Source: Alphaproteobacteria bacterium (GTDB lineage: Bacteria; Pseudomonadota; Alphaproteobacteria; Micavibrionales; Micavibrionaceae). From it: a stretch of 64,000 nt of DNA. The notes beneath the pieces were generated by a model. The model did not search any database, was not told where the DNA came from, and saw only the letters and a list, made by a program, of their open reading frames with translations. The stretch spans positions 358,501 through 422,500 of the forward strand of contig NVTV01000001.1 of assembly GCA_002401695.1 (NCBI GenBank). Reading direction: 5' to 3'. Numbering within the stretch: the stretch's first letter is position 1; the number at the start of each line of letters is the position of its first letter. This document shows positions 51,835 through 62,131 of this stretch, piece by piece. A program made the position numbers and the translations under genes.

Positions 51835-52383
51835 TTACGCATTTTTACGCAGCGCAGCAGCAATAGAAGATATCGCGCTATCCTCGGCGGCACTGATATT
51901 CATGGGATGATTTGCATCATCGGCGGAAAGTCCGGAAAACTCGCCAACAATGCGACTAAGAGCCTTACCAAAGAAGCCTTTTTCAGGGGCTTGCTCTTCA
52001 CCAAATTCACCGTAAGCTTGTGCAACAGCAGAAGCAATTTCGAGCAGCATTTTAATATACCCCTTAACCTCGCTTTCACTTGCTGTCGTCTTCAAAATAA
52101 GAACTGCCTTTTCACATTGCGGTTCAATATTAAACACACCTTCCGACCATGCCGTCCATTTATCCTTTGAGCGCAAGACCTCCGCAGCGATCTCTTTCAT
52201 TAATTCCGAGCCATCATGTAGCTTTGATATTTCCTTAATACAGGCTTCCAAAGCGCGCATCTCACGCTCGTCATCTTGCTCACCCTCTTCATCCTCGCTA
52301 AAACTAACGTGCATACCAACGCGATAAACCAAAGCGACAATAAGTTCGGCGTCCTCGCCGGAAAAAGAAGAAAGCTGTGTCAT
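51835..52383 (-). CDS. helical protein of a tandem paralogous pair (copy 2)
   Basis: A 182-residue acidic, helical protein. It is clearly related to the neighbour at 52405-52965: both share an N-terminal block (ELIVALVYRVGMHVSFSEDE here) with the YRVG motif, an acidic turn, a middle helix with W-x-x-W (KWTAWSEGVFNIEPQCEKA) and a C-terminal helix near ISSIAAALRKNA. The pattern of helices separated by acidic turns recalls the TerB-like fold, though I see no direct motif proof. It begins 22 bases after its partner ends, so they form a two-gene unit. Unknown function; inserted between sucD and sucA. Confidence 0.72.
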   Translation of the reverse strand: MTQLSSFSGEDAELIVALVYRVGMHVSFSEDEEGEQDDEREMRALEACIKEISKLHDGSELMKEIAAEVLRSKDKWTAWSEGVFNIEPQCEKAVLILKTTASESEVKGYIKMLLEIASAVAQAYGEFGEEQAPEKGFFGKALSRIVGEFSGLSADDANHPMNISAAEDSAISSIAAALRKNA

Positions 52384-52404: not shown

Positions 52405-52965
52405 TTATATATAAATTGTATTTAACGCGCCCGCGATCCTACGCAGAGCCTTACGCTCATCCAGAGAAATATTAATGAATTGTTCCCAATCCTTATACGG
52501 CAAACCAACCTTGGCAGCATGCCTTTTCCCTTTCATATAGAACAAGAAGACACGAATTTTATCCATCAAAGGTGTTTCCTTGCCATACTCTCTAAAGGCC
52601 AGCGCCACAGACTCGCCAATTTCGATTAGGTGATGCCTAAAGGCACTAACCTCTTTTACATCGACATGCTCTGATAATATATCAATTGCCTGATGGCACT
52701 GTCCTTCGATTGTTTCCAAATCTTTAGACCATTCTTTCCATTCAGGCTTGCGTCTTACAGTTTCGCTAATCACGTATTGCACAGTTTCCGCGCCGAACAC
52801 CTCTTGTGAATAGGCTGTTATGATACTAGACAGCGCAAGCATTTCCGCTTCATCAGAATCACTTCCGCCCGTTTCATCACTCTGCGAAATGAACAAGCCA
52901 ACACGATATGGCAAACTCACTAATAGTGTGCGTTGTTCCGTAGAAAGTTGATCGAGAAAGCTCAT
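52405..52965 (-). CDS. helical protein of a tandem paralogous pair (copy 1)
   Basis: A 186-residue paralogue of the preceding entry: LLVSLPYRVGLFISQSDETG corresponds to the YRVG block, KPEWKEWSKDLETIEGQCHQA to the W-x-x-W helix, and ERKALRRIAGALNTI to the C-terminal helix. It differs by a basic insert in the C-terminal part (FYMKGKRHAAKVGLPYKDW). The pair is conserved in length and spacing, which points to a tandem duplication and perhaps to a heterodimer. No signal peptide. First gene of the two-gene unit, separated from sucD by a terminator. Confidence 0.72.
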   Translation of the reverse strand: MSFLDQLSTEQRTLLVSLPYRVGLFISQSDETGGSDSDEAEMLALSSIITAYSQEVFGAETVQYVISETVRRKPEWKEWSKDLETIEGQCHQAIDILSEHVDVKEVSAFRHHLIEIGESVALAFREYGKETPLMDKIRVFLFYMKGKRHAAKVGLPYKDWEQFINISLDERKALRRIAGALNTIYI

Positions 52966-54023: not shown

Positions 54024-55229
54024 TTACGCGGCCTCCTGCGCTTTTTGTGTTGCTTCCACGACTTTTTGAGCGGCATCGTCCAAATCATCGGCAGAAATAA
54101 TAGGTAAACCGGAATTCGCCATGAGTTCCTTACCTTTTTTAACATTTGTACCTTCAAGACGCACAACCAATGGCACAGAAAGATTAACTTCCTTCGCCGC
54201 AGTAATAACGCCCTCGGCAATAACATCACATTTCATGATCCCGCCAAAGATATTCACAAGAATACCCTTCACATTCGGATCAGACAGAATAATTTTGAAC
54301 GCAACAGTTACGCGCTCTGCATCTGCGCCACCCCCGACATCCAGAAAGTTTGCAGGCTCACCGCCTTTAAGCTTGATAATATCCATCGTAGACATCGCAA
54401 GACCGGCACCATTAACCATACAGCCAATATTCCCATCCAAACGGACATAAGAAAGTTCATGATCAGAAGCCAGCTTCTCATTCGCGTCTTCTTCCGTTTC
54501 ATCGCGCAGGGCGACAATATCAGGATGGCGGTACAAAGCATTCGGATCAAAACTCATTTTTGCATCCAGCGCCATAACCTCATCACCGACAAGAATCATA
54601 GGGTTGATTTCAACAGAATCAGCATCAAGGTCCATAAATATTGCATAAAGGTTAGAGAAAAACTTCACCGCACTTTTTACTTGCGCACCTTTAAGACCAA
54701 GGCCAAATGCTAATTTACGACAATGAAAACCAGATATCCCAGATGCAGGATCAACTGATACTTTAATAATCTTCTCAGGTGAATTTTCGGCCACCTCTTC
54801 GATATCCATACCACCTTCGGTAGACACCATGAATGCGACGCGTTTAGATGTACGATCAAGAACAACGGAACAGTAATATTCTTTCTCGATATCAACACCG
54901 TCCGTTACATAAAGGCGTTGTACTTCCTTACCTTCAGGGCCTGTTTGCTTTGTCACCAAAACATTGCCCATCATGGCTTCCGCCGCAATGCGCACTTCGT
55001 CAACAGTCTTACACAGACGAACCCCGCCCTTACCGTCAGGATCATTTGTAAAGTGACCTGCACCGCGTCCACCTGCGTGGATTTGCGCTTTAATCACATA
55101 TAAATTCGAATCAGGCATGCTTTCTGCTGCTTTCACAGCCTCATCCACGCTCATCGCGGGAATGCCTTTAGGCACGGTCACACCGTATTTTTCTAATAAA
55201 TCTTTTGCTTGGTATTCATGAATGTTCAT
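54024..55229 (-). CDS. sucC: succinyl-CoA synthetase beta subunit
   Basis: ADP-forming-type beta subunit with the ATP-grasp fold. The 401 residues include [20 protein letters not shown], the nucleotide-binding [12 protein letters not shown], and the CoA/phosphate loop in [21 protein letters not shown] lies about 9 bases before the ATG. First gene of the sucCD unit; in related genomes mdh directly precedes it, but here 5.9 kb with three plus-strand genes lies between mdh and sucC. Confidence 0.97.
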
Positions 55230-55563
55230 CTAAGGAACTCCGTTCAGAAAATTTAGGACAGACATATCAACAGACACGCCGACACTTACCTAATCAGGTG
55301 TAACACTCTTGATTCCATTTGAAAACCGCAAATATCATAAATATTCAAAACAAAATTCGAATTATTTTATTACACACTCCTTTTGACAAAGGGGGGCGCA
55401 TTACCGTACAATAGGGTTTAAGTGTAAATGGGTGGCACTTGTATGTGCGTCAAATGGTAAAAACACGTGGATTACCGCGTAAAAAATAAGTTAAAGACCA
55501 CAAGCAACATACAAGAGAAACCAAATAGTATAATAAAAGCTGGATAAAAAGGATATTTCGAGC
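55230..55563. other. 334-base divergent intergenic region
   Basis: Holds the leader of sucC on the minus strand and the promoter and leader of the 1037-residue coiled-coil gene on the plus strand. Near 55465-55480 ACGTGG/CCGCGT forms a small hairpin with an ATTA loop. A possible peptide of 11 codons (ATG 55454, MVKTRGLPRKK) overlaps that hairpin but has no ribosome-binding site. I see no other structure here. Confidence 0.6.
55383..55412 (+). promoter_or_regulatory. sigma-70-type promoter of the coiled-coil cassette
   Basis: TTGACA (55383-55388) and TACAAT (55407-55412) with 18-base spacing, within a GC-rich spacer (AAGGGGGGCGCA). It leaves a leader of about 145 bases before the ATG at 55564, the only long leader in the window. 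Confidence 0.7.
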
Positions 55564-58500
55564 ATGGCTGGTCCAAATCAAACGGGTGATAAAGACAATA
55601 CAGAAGAAGAACAAGAACTTGCCACCGAGCAAGATGCAACGCTGCCCCCAACGGACACAATCGTTGCTGATACGGTAATCGCAGACAGCGATTCAGATCT
55701 GGACAAAGAATTCAAGCGCGAGCAAGAACATATAAAAGAAGAGCTGAACGCCGCGCAAGATGCCGAACGATCCGTTATGGTTGGTCGTGATAAAAATAAT
55801 ATCGGCGAAAACGCGACATCAAACGCCGTGCTTGATGCCACGATCGCCGCAACTCCTGGCGACACGGCACAAGACATCGAAAATGATGCACATAAAAACG
55901 AGACACAATACGGTTTTGGCGCAGACGCTGCGGCCAAACAAATGAATGACGCCCTATCCGGCGCAGGCGAAGGCAAAACAAGCACGACATTCACGGCGCA
56001 CACGCGCGCAGAAGCTGAAAGACGCAAAAGAGAAGACTCTATGGCGAACATCAGAACAATCGCGATGACCGCCGAAGTCGCCGCCGCCTACGCTGCGATA
56101 GAAGAAGCCCTGCAAAGTATGGGCATTGAGTTAACCGATTTAACCGATGTCTTCGCAGAAATCGATGCACAAGCATCTGAAATGTTAGAATCTCTTGGCA
56201 AAGAAGCTGACGCAGTAGAGACAAGACTTGCCGAGTTGAACCAAGAACTAGACGCTCTCAAAAAAGGTGAAAGCCCCCTTGACTCTGGTGATGATCCAGC
56301 GATGACCACGGCACAAATTACCCTAAAAGAAGCAGAAATAGCCAACGCAGAAGCACGTCTTGAATTAATAAACAATACAATGGCCACGACCAGAGACCAG
56401 ATTCAAGAAACTAAAAACAAAATAGAAACGGCGCAAGAAAGATACGACCACCTGGAAGAACAAGAACGCCACGCAAAAATGACAGGTGACCCCAATAATA
56501 ACCTCGCAGGAATCCAAGCCCAAATGGAACTTGCGAAAGCTGACGTTGATACCGCGAAAGCCTCTATAGAACGCCTCAAAGACCAAGCAAAAATAACCGA
56601 GAGCATCTCGGAACTCGTTGGCGATCTCAAAGGTGAAAGCACGACTTGTGAGGCAACCCCTCAAGCGGAGATTGACAAAGCCGCCCAAATCAGCGCGCGT
56701 ACAAACCTAATCAAAACCCTGACAGCAGCCACAGCAGATGGAAATATTGATGAAACTGAACTCACAGCCATAACAAATGGTCTGAATACGGCGGGAATTT
56801 CCCAAGACGCTAAAAATGAATTTATAAACAGCTTTACCGCGACCAACGGCTCAATCACCATTTCTGATGCCAGTGCCCCCGGTGGCAAAAAGACACTAAC
56901 AGGTGATGAAGCAACCGCATATTTACAATCTCAGTGGGAAGCCATCAAAGAAGAACAGCATGCAGCAACAGAAAATGTACAAGATAAAACCTCTGACGTT
57001 GCCGCTGCCCAAGCGGAAGTCAACGCTGCACTAGCTGAAGTATCAGCACTAAAAACATCTGTAAGCGAAGCCGTAGAAACATTAAAAGCAGAACAAACAC
57101 AAAGTGATGCAGCCACAGCCAGCGCAACAGCAATGGCAAATGTCGATGTAAAATATGACTCCATTTATGACTATATGTCCGAAAACTATCATGTAGACGT
57201 AGGTATAGTGGACAATATTCTAGGGTTTTTTGATGAATCATTTACAAGTGGTGAAAGTATTGATGATGTTGCAAATGATCCAAATAGAATACTAAAAGAT
57301 GCCAACGACAAACTTGTCTATGTCGATCCGGACACACAGAAAATGTATACTCTGGATATTGATAGTGCCGGAAACCAGACAATGGTCGATGTTTCTCCTC
57401 TGGAAACGCTTCAACTTTATCAAAAAATGTACGAGGAAAAACTACTACCACGGAATTTTGTTAAAAACGAAGGCGGGGCGTATGCAGAATACAGCAAAGA
57501 CAACACCTTCCTTGAAAGTATTTCTAAATCAATAGTACCGGGCTTCATGGAAAGCGATGAACGACAAGAATTCATTGAAGCGTATGCAAAACTGGAAAGA
57601 GACGAGCTTCAGAAAGCAAGAACAGAAGCAGCGGAGGCAAAAGACGCCTTAGGAGCCGCACAAGATGATTTAAAAAGCAAAAATAATGACTTAGGTGCAG
57701 CAGACAACAAACTTGTACTAGCGCGAGAACGCTTAGGAATAGTGAATGTCAAAGCCGCAGAGTTCGCAGCAGAAAGCACCAAAAACGCCGCAATTGCTAA
57801 TGCCAGCCCAACAGAAACATCTCCTACTGCCCCTGTTGTAGGACAAGCACCACCGAAGCCCGAACCAATAGACGACATTGCACAAGCACAAATCAATCTG
57901 GAGATTGAGCAGGCTAATGCTGCCCTTAACGAAGCAGCCGACGAAGAAACAGCACAAACAAGTACAAGCGAAACAGACAAAGAAACTGATACACAATGGG
58001 AAACGTCAGAAACACATAAACTCGATATCCCTGACCATGATTTAGCCGATGCGGAAGTCTCTCGTAATGCTGCCTTAGAAAAAGTCGAAATGGCAGTTCG
58101 CAGCGGCGGAACATTATCTCAAGAAGATTACGATACACTAAAAGATGCTCCCGGCATGTCGGCGGAACAACTTGACGATATGATGGCGCAAAACAAAGTA
58201 ACATTGGACAATGGCAACACCCCTGAAGTGGCGAATAATACGGTGAATACACCCACCAACACAATGACGGTTCAGCACACTGCAGGAATACAATTTGATT
58301 ACATTCCAATTCAAACACCAACAGCCCCCGCGCCTGATCAAAACGGCATATCACCGGCAGTAAAATATGAAAGTTTTGCAGACAGCGTGGAATTTACCAG
58401 CACAAATGACCCGTCATCAACCACAAACTCATATGACGCCGTCGCTGTGAAACAAGGTGAAGATCCACCTGTGGCAACATCGATGTTCGCGCAAGCACAA

Positions 58501-58677
58501 CTCGAAACACCGGACGGAAGTGGCGATAATGCACCGAAGATAAACGGCTTAACTCCGGCACAAGCAGACCAACTTAGAATACAAGAAGAAAACAACCGCC
58601 AAGCAGCACAACTAGCAGCACTTGCAACACAAGGTGCTGGCGCAGGTGGCGGTAGTGGCGGCGGCATAGCCGGATAA
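55564..58677 (+). CDS. large acidic coiled-coil protein of unknown function
   Basis: A 1037-residue, strongly acidic, Ala/Glu/Asp-rich protein with no signal peptide and no membrane segment. Residues about 1-200 are disordered and acidic; about 200-360 form a long coiled coil (EAEIANAEARLELINNTMAT and ETKNKIETAQERYDHLEEQE); about 370-480 include ATADGNIDETELTAI, a partial EF-hand-like loop; about 540-680 is a compact region (VDNILGFFDESFTSGESIDD, then YVDPDTQKMYTLDIDSAGNQ); a second coiled coil (ARTEAAEAKDALGAAQDDLK) follows; the tail is Thr/Pro-rich and ends GAGAGGGSGGGIAG. AAGGA lies about 12 bases before the ATG and a consensus promoter further up. Long signal-less coiled-coil proteins next to muralytic enzymes occur among secretion substrates and structural proteins, but no family is recognised. 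Confidence 0.8.
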   Translation: MAGPNQTGDKDNTEEEQELATEQDATLPPTDTIVADTVIADSDSDLDKEFKREQEHIKEELNAAQDAERSVMVGRDKNNIGENATSNAVLDATIAATPGDTAQDIENDAHKNETQYGFGADAAAKQMNDALSGAGEGKTSTTFTAHTRAEAERRKREDSMANIRTIAMTAEVAAAYAAIEEALQSMGIELTDLTDVFAEIDAQASEMLESLGKEADAVETRLAELNQELDALKKGESPLDSGDDPAMTTAQITLKEAEIANAEARLELINNTMATTRDQIQETKNKIETAQERYDHLEEQERHAKMTGDPNNNLAGIQAQMELAKADVDTAKASIERLKDQAKITESISELVGDLKGESTTCEATPQAEIDKAAQISARTNLIKTLTAATADGNIDETELTAITNGLNTAGISQDAKNEFINSFTATNGSITISDASAPGGKKTLTGDEATAYLQSQWEAIKEEQHAATENVQDKTSDVAAAQAEVNAALAEVSALKTSVSEAVETLKAEQTQSDAATASATAMANVDVKYDSIYDYMSENYHVDVGIVDNILGFFDESFTSGESIDDVANDPNRILKDANDKLVYVDPDTQKMYTLDIDSAGNQTMVDVSPLETLQLYQKMYEEKLLPRNFVKNEGGAYAEYSKDNTFLESISKSIVPGFMESDERQEFIEAYAKLERDELQKARTEAAEAKDALGAAQDDLKSKNNDLGAADNKLVLARERLGIVNVKAAEFAAESTKNAAIANASPTETSPTAPVVGQAPPKPEPIDDIAQAQINLEIEQANAALNEAADEETAQTSTSETDKETDTQWETSETHKLDIPDHDLADAEVSRNAALEKVEMAVRSGGTLSQEDYDTLKDAPGMSAEQLDDMMAQNKVTLDNGNTPEVANNTVNTPTNTMTVQHTAGIQFDYIPIQTPTAPAPDQNGISPAVKYESFADSVEFTSTNDPSSTTNSYDAVAVKQGEDPPVATSMFAQAQLETPDGSGDNAPKINGLTPAQADQLRIQEENNRQAAQLAALATQGAGAGGGSGGGIAG

Positions 58678-58719
58678 TAAAAATAAAAAAATGGTAAAGT
58701 GATAAAGGGATGATATAAA

Positions 58720-59802
58720 TTGACAGACTTGCCAGAAAACAACAATCAAGAGACACAGACGGAAACCCCGTCAGGCGCAGTGATGCCTATTGATGGGGAC
58801 AATGGCGACCTAACGGCCTCCTCCGAAATTCAACGTGAAAAAAATCACCACAACCGTCAAACCATGCTTCGAAACATGGGAGAGCTTGACGGAGTGAATT
58901 TACTTACCTTCCTAATGTCCTTCTTTATGGGCATTGATGATGATGAAGGCATGAACAGCGAGAATGCCATATCTGCTATGGCAAACGCCCTGTCTATAGA
59001 CACTACAGCATTACAAAACACCGTAACACAATACAGAGCCGGTGATATTTCCATGTTCAGAGCCGCAACAACTGTACGCAGCAACATGAATATATCGCAA
59101 GCCGATTTATCACGCGCAGAAGATGTCGTTGCACAATATGCGACGACCGGAAACCCTTTATTGGAACTTATCGCGTCTAAGGAATCGGGTGGCGATTACA
59201 ACATCGTATACGGTGGCAGACGCATTAACGCCACCGAAATGAGTATTAATGACGTCATTGCATGGCAGAAAAATTCAACACAAAACGAAGGTGCCGCCTC
59301 TTCGGCAATCGGTAAATATCAAATCATCAGAAAAACACTAACCGGCCTTAAAGAAGAACTCGGCTTAAGTGGTGATGAAAAATACGATGAAGCAATGCAA
59401 GATCGCATGGCCGTCGCTTTACTTGAGCGCCGCGGTTATGATGATTACCTTGCCGGCGACCTTTCCGAGAGCCGTTTCATGAAAAACATATCGATGGAAT
59501 GGGCCTCCATGCCAAAAGACGAAAGTGGCGTCAGCTATTACGCAGGCGATGGCCTTAACCAAGCACACGCATCACCTGCAACACTTTTACTTGCAATGCA
59601 ACATGTTAAAAACACCCCAACAGAATCACCAAATCAACTCGCCTTTAATAATGGCGGCGTTGCTGAGCAAGATCCGCAACAACCAAACCCTCTTCCGTTT
59701 GATGGACAAGGTGTTAATGTTGTTGCCGCAGCCACACTGGCCGATGCCGCGAATTCGCAAGATGTAACAGCGCCGGCAACAAGCCCTACACTAACATCAT
59801 AA
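58720..59802 (+). CDS. lambda-lysozyme-like muramidase domain protein
   Basis: A 360-residue protein starting at TTG 58720 (AAGGGA about 9 bases upstream). Residues about 145-300 resemble the phage lambda lysozyme/endolysin (GH104-type lytic transglycosylase): LLELIASKESGGDYNIVYGG carries the catalytic Glu followed by the NVVYGG-like strand, AASSAIGKYQIIRKTLTGL and MAVALLERRGYDDYLAGDLS match the remaining fold, and MEWASMPKDESG fits the IWASLPG segment. The N-terminal 140 residues (acidic start, then NLLTFLMSFFMGIDDDEGMN) and the C-terminal 60 residues (Gln/Asn/Pro-rich) are extra. There is no signal peptide, so it needs another export route, or acts inside the cell. 42 bases after the coiled-coil gene. 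Confidence 0.78.
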   Translation: MTDLPENNNQETQTETPSGAVMPIDGDNGDLTASSEIQREKNHHNRQTMLRNMGELDGVNLLTFLMSFFMGIDDDEGMNSENAISAMANALSIDTTALQNTVTQYRAGDISMFRAATTVRSNMNISQADLSRAEDVVAQYATTGNPLLELIASKESGGDYNIVYGGRRINATEMSINDVIAWQKNSTQNEGAASSAIGKYQIIRKTLTGLKEELGLSGDEKYDEAMQDRMAVALLERRGYDDYLAGDLSESRFMKNISMEWASMPKDESGVSYYAGDGLNQAHASPATLLLAMQHVKNTPTESPNQLAFNNGGVAEQDPQQPNPLPFDGQGVNVVAAATLADAANSQDVTAPATSPTLTS

Positions 59803-59919
59803 TCATTAAACATCTTAGCTTAGCGGTTTCTTTACCAATTTTGCTCTACCATAAAGATTAAGGCACCAGCCTTTGTTTGTGCATTCACGCGCAAACTTAT
59901 TATTTTCTATGGTTTCTAT

Positions 59920-61071
59920 ATGTTCGGAAAACAAAAATACATTGGCCTTAAATTTTGCCTCGCACTTTATACGACAGGGTTATTACTTGCACCAACATCC
60001 AGTTTTGCAAAAGATGACGCGCGCCCTGCTCCACTGCATATAAAAATAAACAAATCAAAATCACCACCATCAAAAAAATCATTCAATATCAGATTTGGAA
60101 AAGAATCTGAGAAAACAACAACCAAAAGAAATGAAGCCAAAAAGCCAGAAAATGATGCCCCCGACAATAAAGTCGCGCCAGAGACAATAACAAGCACGAC
60201 GCACCTCACCCCCACCAAAAACATAACACCTAAATTGATAGAAACCCGATCCTGTCACGAAAGCACATCCAAAAATACAAATCGGTACAAAAAATTAGCC
60301 GATTCTTTGAAGCTGCACGTTACAGCACAAAATCGCGACCCATCGCTGATTGATGACATTTACGAAGCCAGCACCGTCACCCATATAGACTTTGAACTCT
60401 TAATTATCACGGCAATGATTGAAAGCGACCTTGGGCGCGTGACAAAATCATCGACTAGCTCCGCGCGCGGTATATTCCAGTATATTGAACCAACATGGCT
60501 TGTCCTGATAAAACGTTACGGCTCACGAATCGGCCAAGGTGATTACACAAACTCCATTACAATCAATGCTGAAAGCTATTTACCTGAGATAGCAAGCGAT
60601 AGCCAATTTACAATAAAAGATATTCTCACCCTGCGTGATAACACAAAGATAGCATCCCTTATCAAAGCATATCAGTTAAAAGACGAAGCAAAAATTGTCG
60701 CAAAATATAAGGCCGGACAGCGTATTAACGCCACGGATCACTATATCGTACATATGTTAGGATTATCTCAAGCGCATACCTTCTATGCTCTTCTAAAAAA
60801 CGAATCGTCTAATATTTTGGCCAATTTAGAGAGTAAGGGCTTCAAAGAAGCAATGCGCCTCAATCCTACCTTTTTCTACAACGCACAAAACAAAGCCTTA
60901 AGCGCGGCAGATGCCTACATACAATTCCATCATAAAATATCACAGCAATATAAGAGATTGCATGCTATTAGCGAAAAGTACGGAAATGGTGATATGCCCC
61001 GCTCTCGCTGTAATTTACCAAAGATACAAACAGTATCTTCCGTAAAAACGACCAAAGGCCACAGACTTTAA
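59920..61071 (+). CDS. exported SLT-type transglycosylase
   Basis: A 383-residue protein with a signal peptide (about residues 1-30: YIGLKFCLALYTTGLLLAP, SSFA). A Lys/Pro-rich linker (residues 31-115) leads to a lytic transglycosylase domain: FELLIITAMIESDLGRVTKS holds the catalytic Glu, SSARGIFQYIEPTWLVLIKRYG is the GLMQ-type motif, and NATDHYIVHMLGLSQAHTFY is the LYLAHFLG-type motif seen in alphaproteobacterial and flagellar enzymes. It cleaves peptidoglycan glycan strands in the periplasm. Third gene of the cassette, with its own 117-base upstream gap. A shared terminator separates it from mdh. Confidence 0.85.
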   Translation: MFGKQKYIGLKFCLALYTTGLLLAPTSSFAKDDARPAPLHIKINKSKSPPSKKSFNIRFGKESEKTTTKRNEAKKPENDAPDNKVAPETITSTTHLTPTKNITPKLIETRSCHESTSKNTNRYKKLADSLKLHVTAQNRDPSLIDDIYEASTVTHIDFELLIITAMIESDLGRVTKSSTSSARGIFQYIEPTWLVLIKRYGSRIGQGDYTNSITINAESYLPEIASDSQFTIKDILTLRDNTKIASLIKAYQLKDEAKIVAKYKAGQRINATDHYIVHMLGLSQAHTFYALLKNESSNILANLESKGFKEAMRLNPTFFYNAQNKALSAADAYIQFHHKISQQYKRLHAISEKYGNGDMPRSRCNLPKIQTVSSVKTTKGHRL

Positions 61072-61132: not shown

Positions 61133-62131
61133 CTAAGCCGCAGCCGCCTTACTGGCAAACAGCCCTTCAACGGTGGTGCGCTCCCCGCGCAATTCTTTAT
61201 CCGTTTCATCAAGGCGACTTTGAGAGAAAGCAGAAATCTCCAACCCTTGTACGATTTCATAGTTACCACCTTTACATGTCACGGGATAACCGAAAATTAT
61301 GCCCTCTTCTATGCCATAAGACCCATCAGATGGAACAGCCATCGAAACCCATTCACCTTCCGGCGTGCCAAGTGCCCAATTGCGCATATGATCAACAGCA
61401 GAAGATGCCGCACTCGCTGCAGAAGAAGCGCCACGAGCCTTAATAATCGCACCGCCGCGTTGTTGCACATCAGGAATAAACGAACCTTCAAACCATGCTT
61501 GATCGACTTGATCCATCGCCGCGCTGCCCTTAACCGTTGCATGGTGAATGTCAGGATATTGAGTTGAACTGTGATTACCCCAAATAATCATATTTTTCAC
61601 ATCAGTTGAGTGCGCCCCTGTTTTTTCGGCCAACTGACTCATCGCGCGGTTATGATCCAAACGCACCATCGCGGTAAAACATTTAGGATCAAGATCCGGC
61701 GCGTTTTGTTGTGCAATCAATGCATTTGTATTCGCAGGATTACCAACAACCAAAACTTTAACATCGCGTTTTGCATGCGCGTTCAAAGCCTTACCTTGTG
61801 GCCCAAAAATGCCACCATTGGCCTCAAGCAAATCTTTACGCTCCATCCCGTCTTTACGTGGCATCGCGCCAACGAGCAGCGCAAAATCAACATCTTTGAA
61901 CGCCACATCCGGATCATCTGTAGCCACAATTCCAGCCAAAAGCGGGAACGCACAATCATTAAGTTCCATAATCACACCCTCAAGCGCGCCCAGCGCAGGG
62001 GTAATCTCCAATAAATGCAAGATAATGGGTTGATCCGGCCCCAACATTGAACCTGATGCAATGCGAAATAACAACGCATAACCAATTTGTCCTGCTGCGC
62101 CTGTTATGGCTACTCTTACTGGGTCTTTCAT
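61133..62131 (-). CDS. mdh: malate dehydrogenase (cytosolic-like type)
   Basis: Interconverts malate and oxaloacetate with NAD. The 332 residues begin [20 protein letters not shown] with the GxxGxxG NAD-binding motif, then [37 protein letters not shown] (substrate Arg), [11 protein letters not shown], the catalytic Asp in [11 protein letters not shown] and His in [11 protein letters not shown]. This is the Burkholderia/Thermus/eukaryotic-cytosolic type, not the LDH-like MDH (start of the type IALIGAGxIG) normal for Alphaproteobacteria. It stands at the expected mdh position upstream of sucC but is separated from it by the three-gene cassette. Confidence 0.95.

Follow-up and report, generated by a model that had tools for sequence, protein, structure and literature searches.

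What are genes for predicted peptidoglycan-cleaving enzymes doing between two genes of the tricarboxylic acid (TCA) cycle? In the 64,000-nucleotide stretch analysed here (the window; contig NVTV01000001.1 of assembly GCA_002401695.1, positions 358,501 to 422,500), three genes on the plus strand, genes 1 to 3, are flanked by sucC and mdh on the minus strand. The window lies on a contig of 690 kb, and its genome, called G000 below, belongs to the Micavibrionaceae, which also include the epibiotic predator Micavibrio aeruginosavorus. An earlier note on the window had reported the three genes between mdh and sucC behind a consensus promoter, and both the open reading frames (ORFs) and a promoter with 11 of 12 consensus matches were confirmed (Table 1). 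We consider, with a probability of about 0.5, that the genes make up a cassette for wall attack that is specific to the Micavibrionaceae lineage, diversifies fast and most likely serves against prey.

Comparison of neighbourhoods repeatedly placed genes 1 and 2 beside sucC, in many cases with a third, enzyme-coding gene after them. The three genes are neighbours in other genomes too, in keeping with the cassette proposed in the earlier note, and do not merely occur independently of one another. Divergent ORFs lie upstream of 43 of the 45 Micavibrionaceae sucC starts examined. A peptidoglycan hydrolase was recognised at 24 of them, including that of M. aeruginosavorus ARL-13, by an automatic count that misses at least one (a 529-aa SLT-type gene at L184, cut off by the rule used). 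Where mdh and sucC share a contig, they are nearly always 1.8 to 8.1 kb apart; the distance is 0.4 kb in G079, and in the outgroup G131, which belongs to a different family of the order, mdh directly adjoins sucC with no insert. In G006 it is sucC, not mdh, that the cassette has remained beside. Judged by gene order, linkage of the locus to sucC is a family-wide trait. Upstream of sucC in ARL-13 (L179:5394-9821) lie genes for a 720-aa acidic protein, a lambda-type lysozyme and an SLT-type protein, and the cassette proteins of this strain are 86-95% identical to those of its sister genome G033. Relatives of gene 1 were restricted to the genus at the search sensitivity used, those of gene 2 were found in 20 of 58 genomes, and those of gene 3 almost everywhere in the genomes searched, because its domain is widespread. 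A GTDB scan returned same-locus records from Micavibrio and from Alphaproteobacteria metagenome-assembled genomes (MAGs); NCBI places Micavibrio under Bdellovibrionota. The literature that we searched held no description of this sucC locus or its arrangement. The enzymes are of known families; it is the combination of constant ends round an exchangeable hydrolase, a mosaic partner and a fixed family-wide locus for which that literature gave no precedent.

The exchange is seen in gene 2. Eleven gene 2 proteins, from the genus and from G016, have a common N-module with a hydrophobic helix, most of them also a common C-terminal tail, and the enzyme between the two differs (alignment A1). It is a lambda-type lysozyme in seven, an SLT domain in G001 (1.5e-19) and G016 (1.3e-19), another SLT in G010 (1.3e-4) and a T4-type lysozyme (3e-10) with a CHAP domain (6e-6) in G007. 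At the same locus in the wider family we found an M23 peptidase (2.5e-23; G022 and G027), an NlpC/P60-like enzyme (E 0.003, under the Pfam cut-off), and GH108 (2.9e-21), the last in G112 and G014 by Pfam and in G113 and G114 by a profile built in this analysis. Searched by itself, the N-module turned up in 11 of 38 genomes, with a single copy in each and nowhere but at the sucC locus; therefore, as far as sequence can tell, it is a local tag rather than a common domain. On the same alignments the gene 2 enzyme is an exchangeable part between constant ends.

Two different peptidoglycan-cleaving enzymes, one with and one without a signal, had been noticed earlier, and profile matches together with inspection for signals are in line with this. 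None of genes 1 to 3 matched Pfam over the cut-off. In gene 2, the PHROG endolysin family phrog_90 matched residues 85-326 (2.8e-26). Searching the PDB with a profile of the whole gene 2 alignment gave no match, and the single sequence matched lambda lysozyme at chance level only, so a comparison of folds was needed. The best solved fold found by Foldseek for the AlphaFold model (mean predicted local distance difference test score, pLDDT, 75; catalytic part mostly above 90) was phage lambda lysozyme, 1am7, with probability 1.00 and a target template modelling score of 0.55, at an E of only 0.03. Glu155 was kept in all 53 aligned homologues having a residue at that position. By sequence and model, residues 140-299 are lambda-lysozyme-like and would be expected to cleave peptidoglycan. 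The domain has the fold and the conserved Glu, Gln and Trp positions of the phage enzyme (R endolysin type, PHROG 90); unlike that enzyme, it is embedded in a 360-aa protein between two modules peculiar to this lineage, and unrelated hydrolases can take its place. MAGs of Saccharibacteria and other Patescibacteria (L109-L115, L117, L121, L124), the Patescibacteria being a group with known epibionts, also encode lysozymes with 41-47% identity to the gene 2 domain.

Gene 3 matched a PHROG transglycosylase over residues 131-350 (6.9e-17), and the profile of its homologues retrieved gp144 of phage phiKZ from the PDB (3bkh, 1.9e-20; 9xps, 1.7e-20). Glu168, invariant in alignment A3, stands opposite residue 115 of the gp144 chain, the catalytic residue of that enzyme, in the 3bkh and 9xps alignment. 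The catalytic domains are alike in both conserved stretches and in this Glu. Unlike gp144, the gene 3 protein has a putative Sec-type signal, typical by eye and present in most A3 members on inspection, a long linker and a PLHIKI motif, and its gene is chromosomal and bound to the sucC locus. The PLHIKI-like motif was seen just past the predicted signal cleavage site in seven of ten gene 3 homologues.

With the domains of genes 2 and 3 closest to phage endolysins and tail lysozymes, the cassette might be taken for domesticated phage genes, its enzymes derived from prophages and the whole a decaying or selfish remnant. Similar lysozymes do occur away from sucC, in apparent prophages, in G006, G003 and G022. 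However, the ORFs of the cassette are intact, its promoter is conserved, purifying selection acts on it in the genus, no phage carries gene 1, and its position is fixed across the family; we regard a phage remnant as very improbable. Single domains were likely recruited from phages, but taken as a unit the cassette is no prophage. The prophage-like stretch L082 (G003:C5) holds nine ORFs in the similarity cluster of the lysozyme gene and has genes in common with L076.

The coiled-coil protein that the earlier note had read from gene 1 falls into no known family by our searches: the acidic 1037-aa product, with one Cys and no signal peptide on inspection, matched no Pfam, PHROG or NCBIfam family over the cut-off and nothing in phage records. 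Its model is long and mostly helical, of low confidence (mean pLDDT 51), and a fold search was dropped as the model was too uncertain. Gene 1 proteins of G000 and of the nearest relative, G004, are alike at their ends only, with 40% identity over 164 aa in the N-terminal part and 58% over 213 aa in the C-terminal part. The middle of the G000 protein is unrelated to that of G004, part of which matches G007 instead (38%). The protein start MAGPN..GD is common to G000, G004 and G009, the FAD within the C-terminal SFADS motif is invariant in the gene 1 alignment, and a hidden Markov model of the C-terminal part matched in nine cassettes of the family sucC survey. These comparisons point to mosaic evolution of gene 1 under overall purifying selection.

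The cassette proteins also diverge faster than the products of the flanking genes. Between G000 and G004, identity is 98% for sucC, 94% for mdh, 79% for each of genes 2 and 3 and 38% for gene 1. The ratio of nonsynonymous to synonymous divergence (dN/dS) in this pair is 0.165 for genes 2 and 3, as compared to 0.027-0.072 for six neighbouring genes, and dS of genes 2 and 3 is within or near the range of the neighbours. On this evidence the TCA-cycle genes beside the cassette encode proteins that evolve more slowly than those of the cassette itself.

How could proteins without signals leave the cell? The earlier note had offered an appendage or secretion machine as one explanation, which finds no support here: no part of the cassette shows a likeness to a channel, ATPase, pilin, sheath or tube. 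We also looked at routes encoded elsewhere. Type VI secretion was rejected, its sheath gene vipB being absent from all 38 genomes, G000 included; a VirB-type type IV system was rejected as sporadic, with VirB4 in 6 of the 38. G000 has two VirB-type gene clusters (L208, C12; L209, C15), probably conjugative elements. HlyD exceeded the cut-off in 36 of 38 genomes but is no more than a fragment in G000, where, relative to G004, two deletions took out most of TolC, the ABC exporter and HlyD. The remnant is an in-frame ORF of 117 aa (L205:5885-6238; G000:C34, about 89884-90237), the operon of G004 is intact (L207:5645-10516), and one deletion junction has the short common sequence GCTGAATAT. The best G000 match to the G004 ABC exporter is 29% identical, no close ABC exporter being left, and type I secretion was rejected on these two grounds; the cassette proteins have no RTX GGxGxD repeats and the cassette encodes no ABC or HlyD exporter.

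By gene content, the flagellar export gate is the sole signal-less route found intact in G000 as well as in almost every relative: FlhA is full length in the former and over the cut-off in 34 of 38 genomes. Flagellar machinery exports non-flagellar proteins in some other bacteria (PMC2764114), and FlgJ of the dual-domain kind is a wall enzyme of the flagellum (PMC8517470); with FlhA intact, this gate is our leading guess for the route that the signal-less cassette proteins may take. The same facts suit a different purpose, that the enzymes cut through the peptidoglycan of the cell itself to make way for an envelope structure such as a flagellum or pilus, with gene 2 passing the flagellar gate. 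The layout of gene 2, a signal-less protein with a helical N-terminal part and a wall-cutting domain, is like that of FlgJ. Gene 3, a lytic transglycosylase periplasmic by its predicted signal, recalls SltF, the periplasmic lytic transglycosylase of flagellated bacteria. Unlike FlgJ and SltF, however, the cassette has no rod-binding or GH73 domain (Pfam finds neither a rod-binding nor a glucosaminidase domain in gene 2), does not lie at a flagellar locus, and exchanges catalytic families rapidly; housekeeping enzymes would not be expected to switch catalytic family among congeners or to outpace their neighbours. Self-directed remodelling is thus an unlikely account of the locus.

The constant ends, the exchangeable enzyme and the large mosaic partner resemble polymorphic toxins, in which a trafficking part is likewise constant, and the proteins could on that likeness be contact-dependent or released toxins aimed at competitors and not at prey. 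In contrast to polymorphic toxins, the cassette has no linked immunity gene that we could see, its variable domain is internal and not C-terminal, and all the exchangeable domains recognised cut peptidoglycan. The absence of the type VI sheath gene and the scarcity of VirB4 across the 38 genomes also argue against toxins of this kind, and we hold antagonism to competitors to be improbable.

Wall attack on prey, the reading we prefer, would work as follows. Gene 1 would be a long mosaic helical partner serving as scaffold, tether or adaptor. The constant ends of gene 2 are probably for delivery or partner binding, with the exchangeable hydrolase between them, and gene 3 would add a Sec-exported lytic transglycosylase. 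Together the three proteins may act at the contact site in epibiotic attack, cleaving peptidoglycan of prey or of neighbouring cells, and species would differ in cutting chemistry, possibly because prey walls differ. The earlier note's attack module of a predatory or epibiotic lifestyle fares better than its secretion machine, in so far as the family includes a proven obligate epibiotic predator, ARL-13 (PMC3189940); a role in predation is a proposal from that setting. Wall-cutting enzymes of Bdellovibrio such as DslA (PMC7511926) act on the prey wall, as proposed here, and DslABC homologues are reported to be lacking in Micavibrio. Unlike DslA, the cassette enzymes are of other families, gene 2 has neither lipobox nor signal, and the predator would be epibiotic rather than periplasmic.

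Several points weigh against this reading. Genes 1 and 2 lack signal peptides and no exporter is linked to the cassette. Their low Cys content (1.4 per 1000 residues in gene 1 and 0.7 in gene 2, against 9-10 elsewhere) was rejected as proof of export, and for gene 2 it is weak evidence of it, because this lysozyme domain contains little Cys in unrelated bacteria as well. Neither in the window's cassette (genes 1 to 3 only) nor in its relatives was a gene for immunity or self-protection recognised. The profiles used recognised no hydrolase at 21 of the 45 loci, and the enrichment of hydrolase matches among ORFs of at least 150 aa (37 of the 110 within the cassette, as compared to 2 of the 323 outside it on the same stretches) is partly circular since some profiles were built from cassette members, which does not apply to the Pfam matches. 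The dN/dS values, well below 1, are gene averages without sign of positive selection, and the predatory habit of the window's own species is suggested by kinship only. A more specific version, that epibiotic predators have a dedicated and so far undescribed system for penetrating the prey wall, with a mosaic coiled-coil scaffold presenting interchangeable hydrolases through signal-less export and a repertoire that tracks prey wall chemistry or range, is a tentative and rather doubtful possibility.

A conserved promoter precedes the cassette. The TTGACA box was aligned in all seven congeners compared, with a similar -10 region, and its position is held while the surrounding sequence diverges. 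This alignment and the consensus matches argue that the promoter is more than a chance match. With a terminator-like hairpin between it and gene 2, gene 3 may be transcribed separately from genes 1 and 2, though such hairpins are hardly commoner in the window than in shuffled sequence. Elsewhere in the window, between sucD and sucA, two tandem related proteins of 182 and 186 aa are encoded on the minus strand (51835-52383 and 52405-52965); they belong to no known Pfam family, and the pair is kept in many of the family members seen.

Table 1. Positions of the cassette, its parts and its flanking genes in the window.
Feature	Position	Strand	Description
sucC	54024-55229	-	Flank that the cassette tracks
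Sigma-70-type promoter, TTGACA-18-TACAAT	55383-55412	+	11/12 consensus matches
Gene 1	55564-58677	+	ORF, 1037 aa, ATG start
Gene 1 N-terminal part, residues 1-160	55564-56043	+	Common to gene 1 of nearest relative G004
Gene 1 C-terminal part with SFADS motif, residues 815-1023	58006-58632	+	From G004 alignment
Gene 2	58720-59802	+	ORF, 360 aa, TTG start; putative modular peptidoglycan hydrolase, no signal peptide, no Cys
Gene 2 N-module with hydrophobic helix GVNLLTFLMSFFMGI, residues 59-139	58894-59136	+	Alignments A1/A6, hydropathy
Gene 2 lambda-type lysozyme domain, residues 140-299	59137-59616	+	Glu155 in catalytic position
Gene 2 C-terminal tail, AFNNGG..DP.QP.PL..FDG.GV	59620-59763	+	Conserved, alignment A1
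Terminator-like hairpin ahead of gene 3	59875-59896	+	Sites of this kind not clearly above chance
Gene 3	59920-61071	+	ORF, 383 aa, ATG start; putative gp144-type lytic transglycosylase, predicted Sec-type signal
Gene 3 Sec signal peptide (predicted), residues 1-30	59920-60009	+	Sequence inspection, alignment A3
Gene 3 catalytic domain, residues 137-341	60328-60942	+	Glu168 aligned with gp144 Glu115
mdh	61133-62131	-	Other flank; in some relatives moved or replaced by a different mdh type

How epibiotic predators breach the prey envelope and feed is an open question, and few Micavibrio genes have been tied to either step. The family-wide locus narrows down which genes to delete and which enzymes to purify, in a species that has cultured strains, and it would be a natural library of wall-cutting domains in one constant frame.

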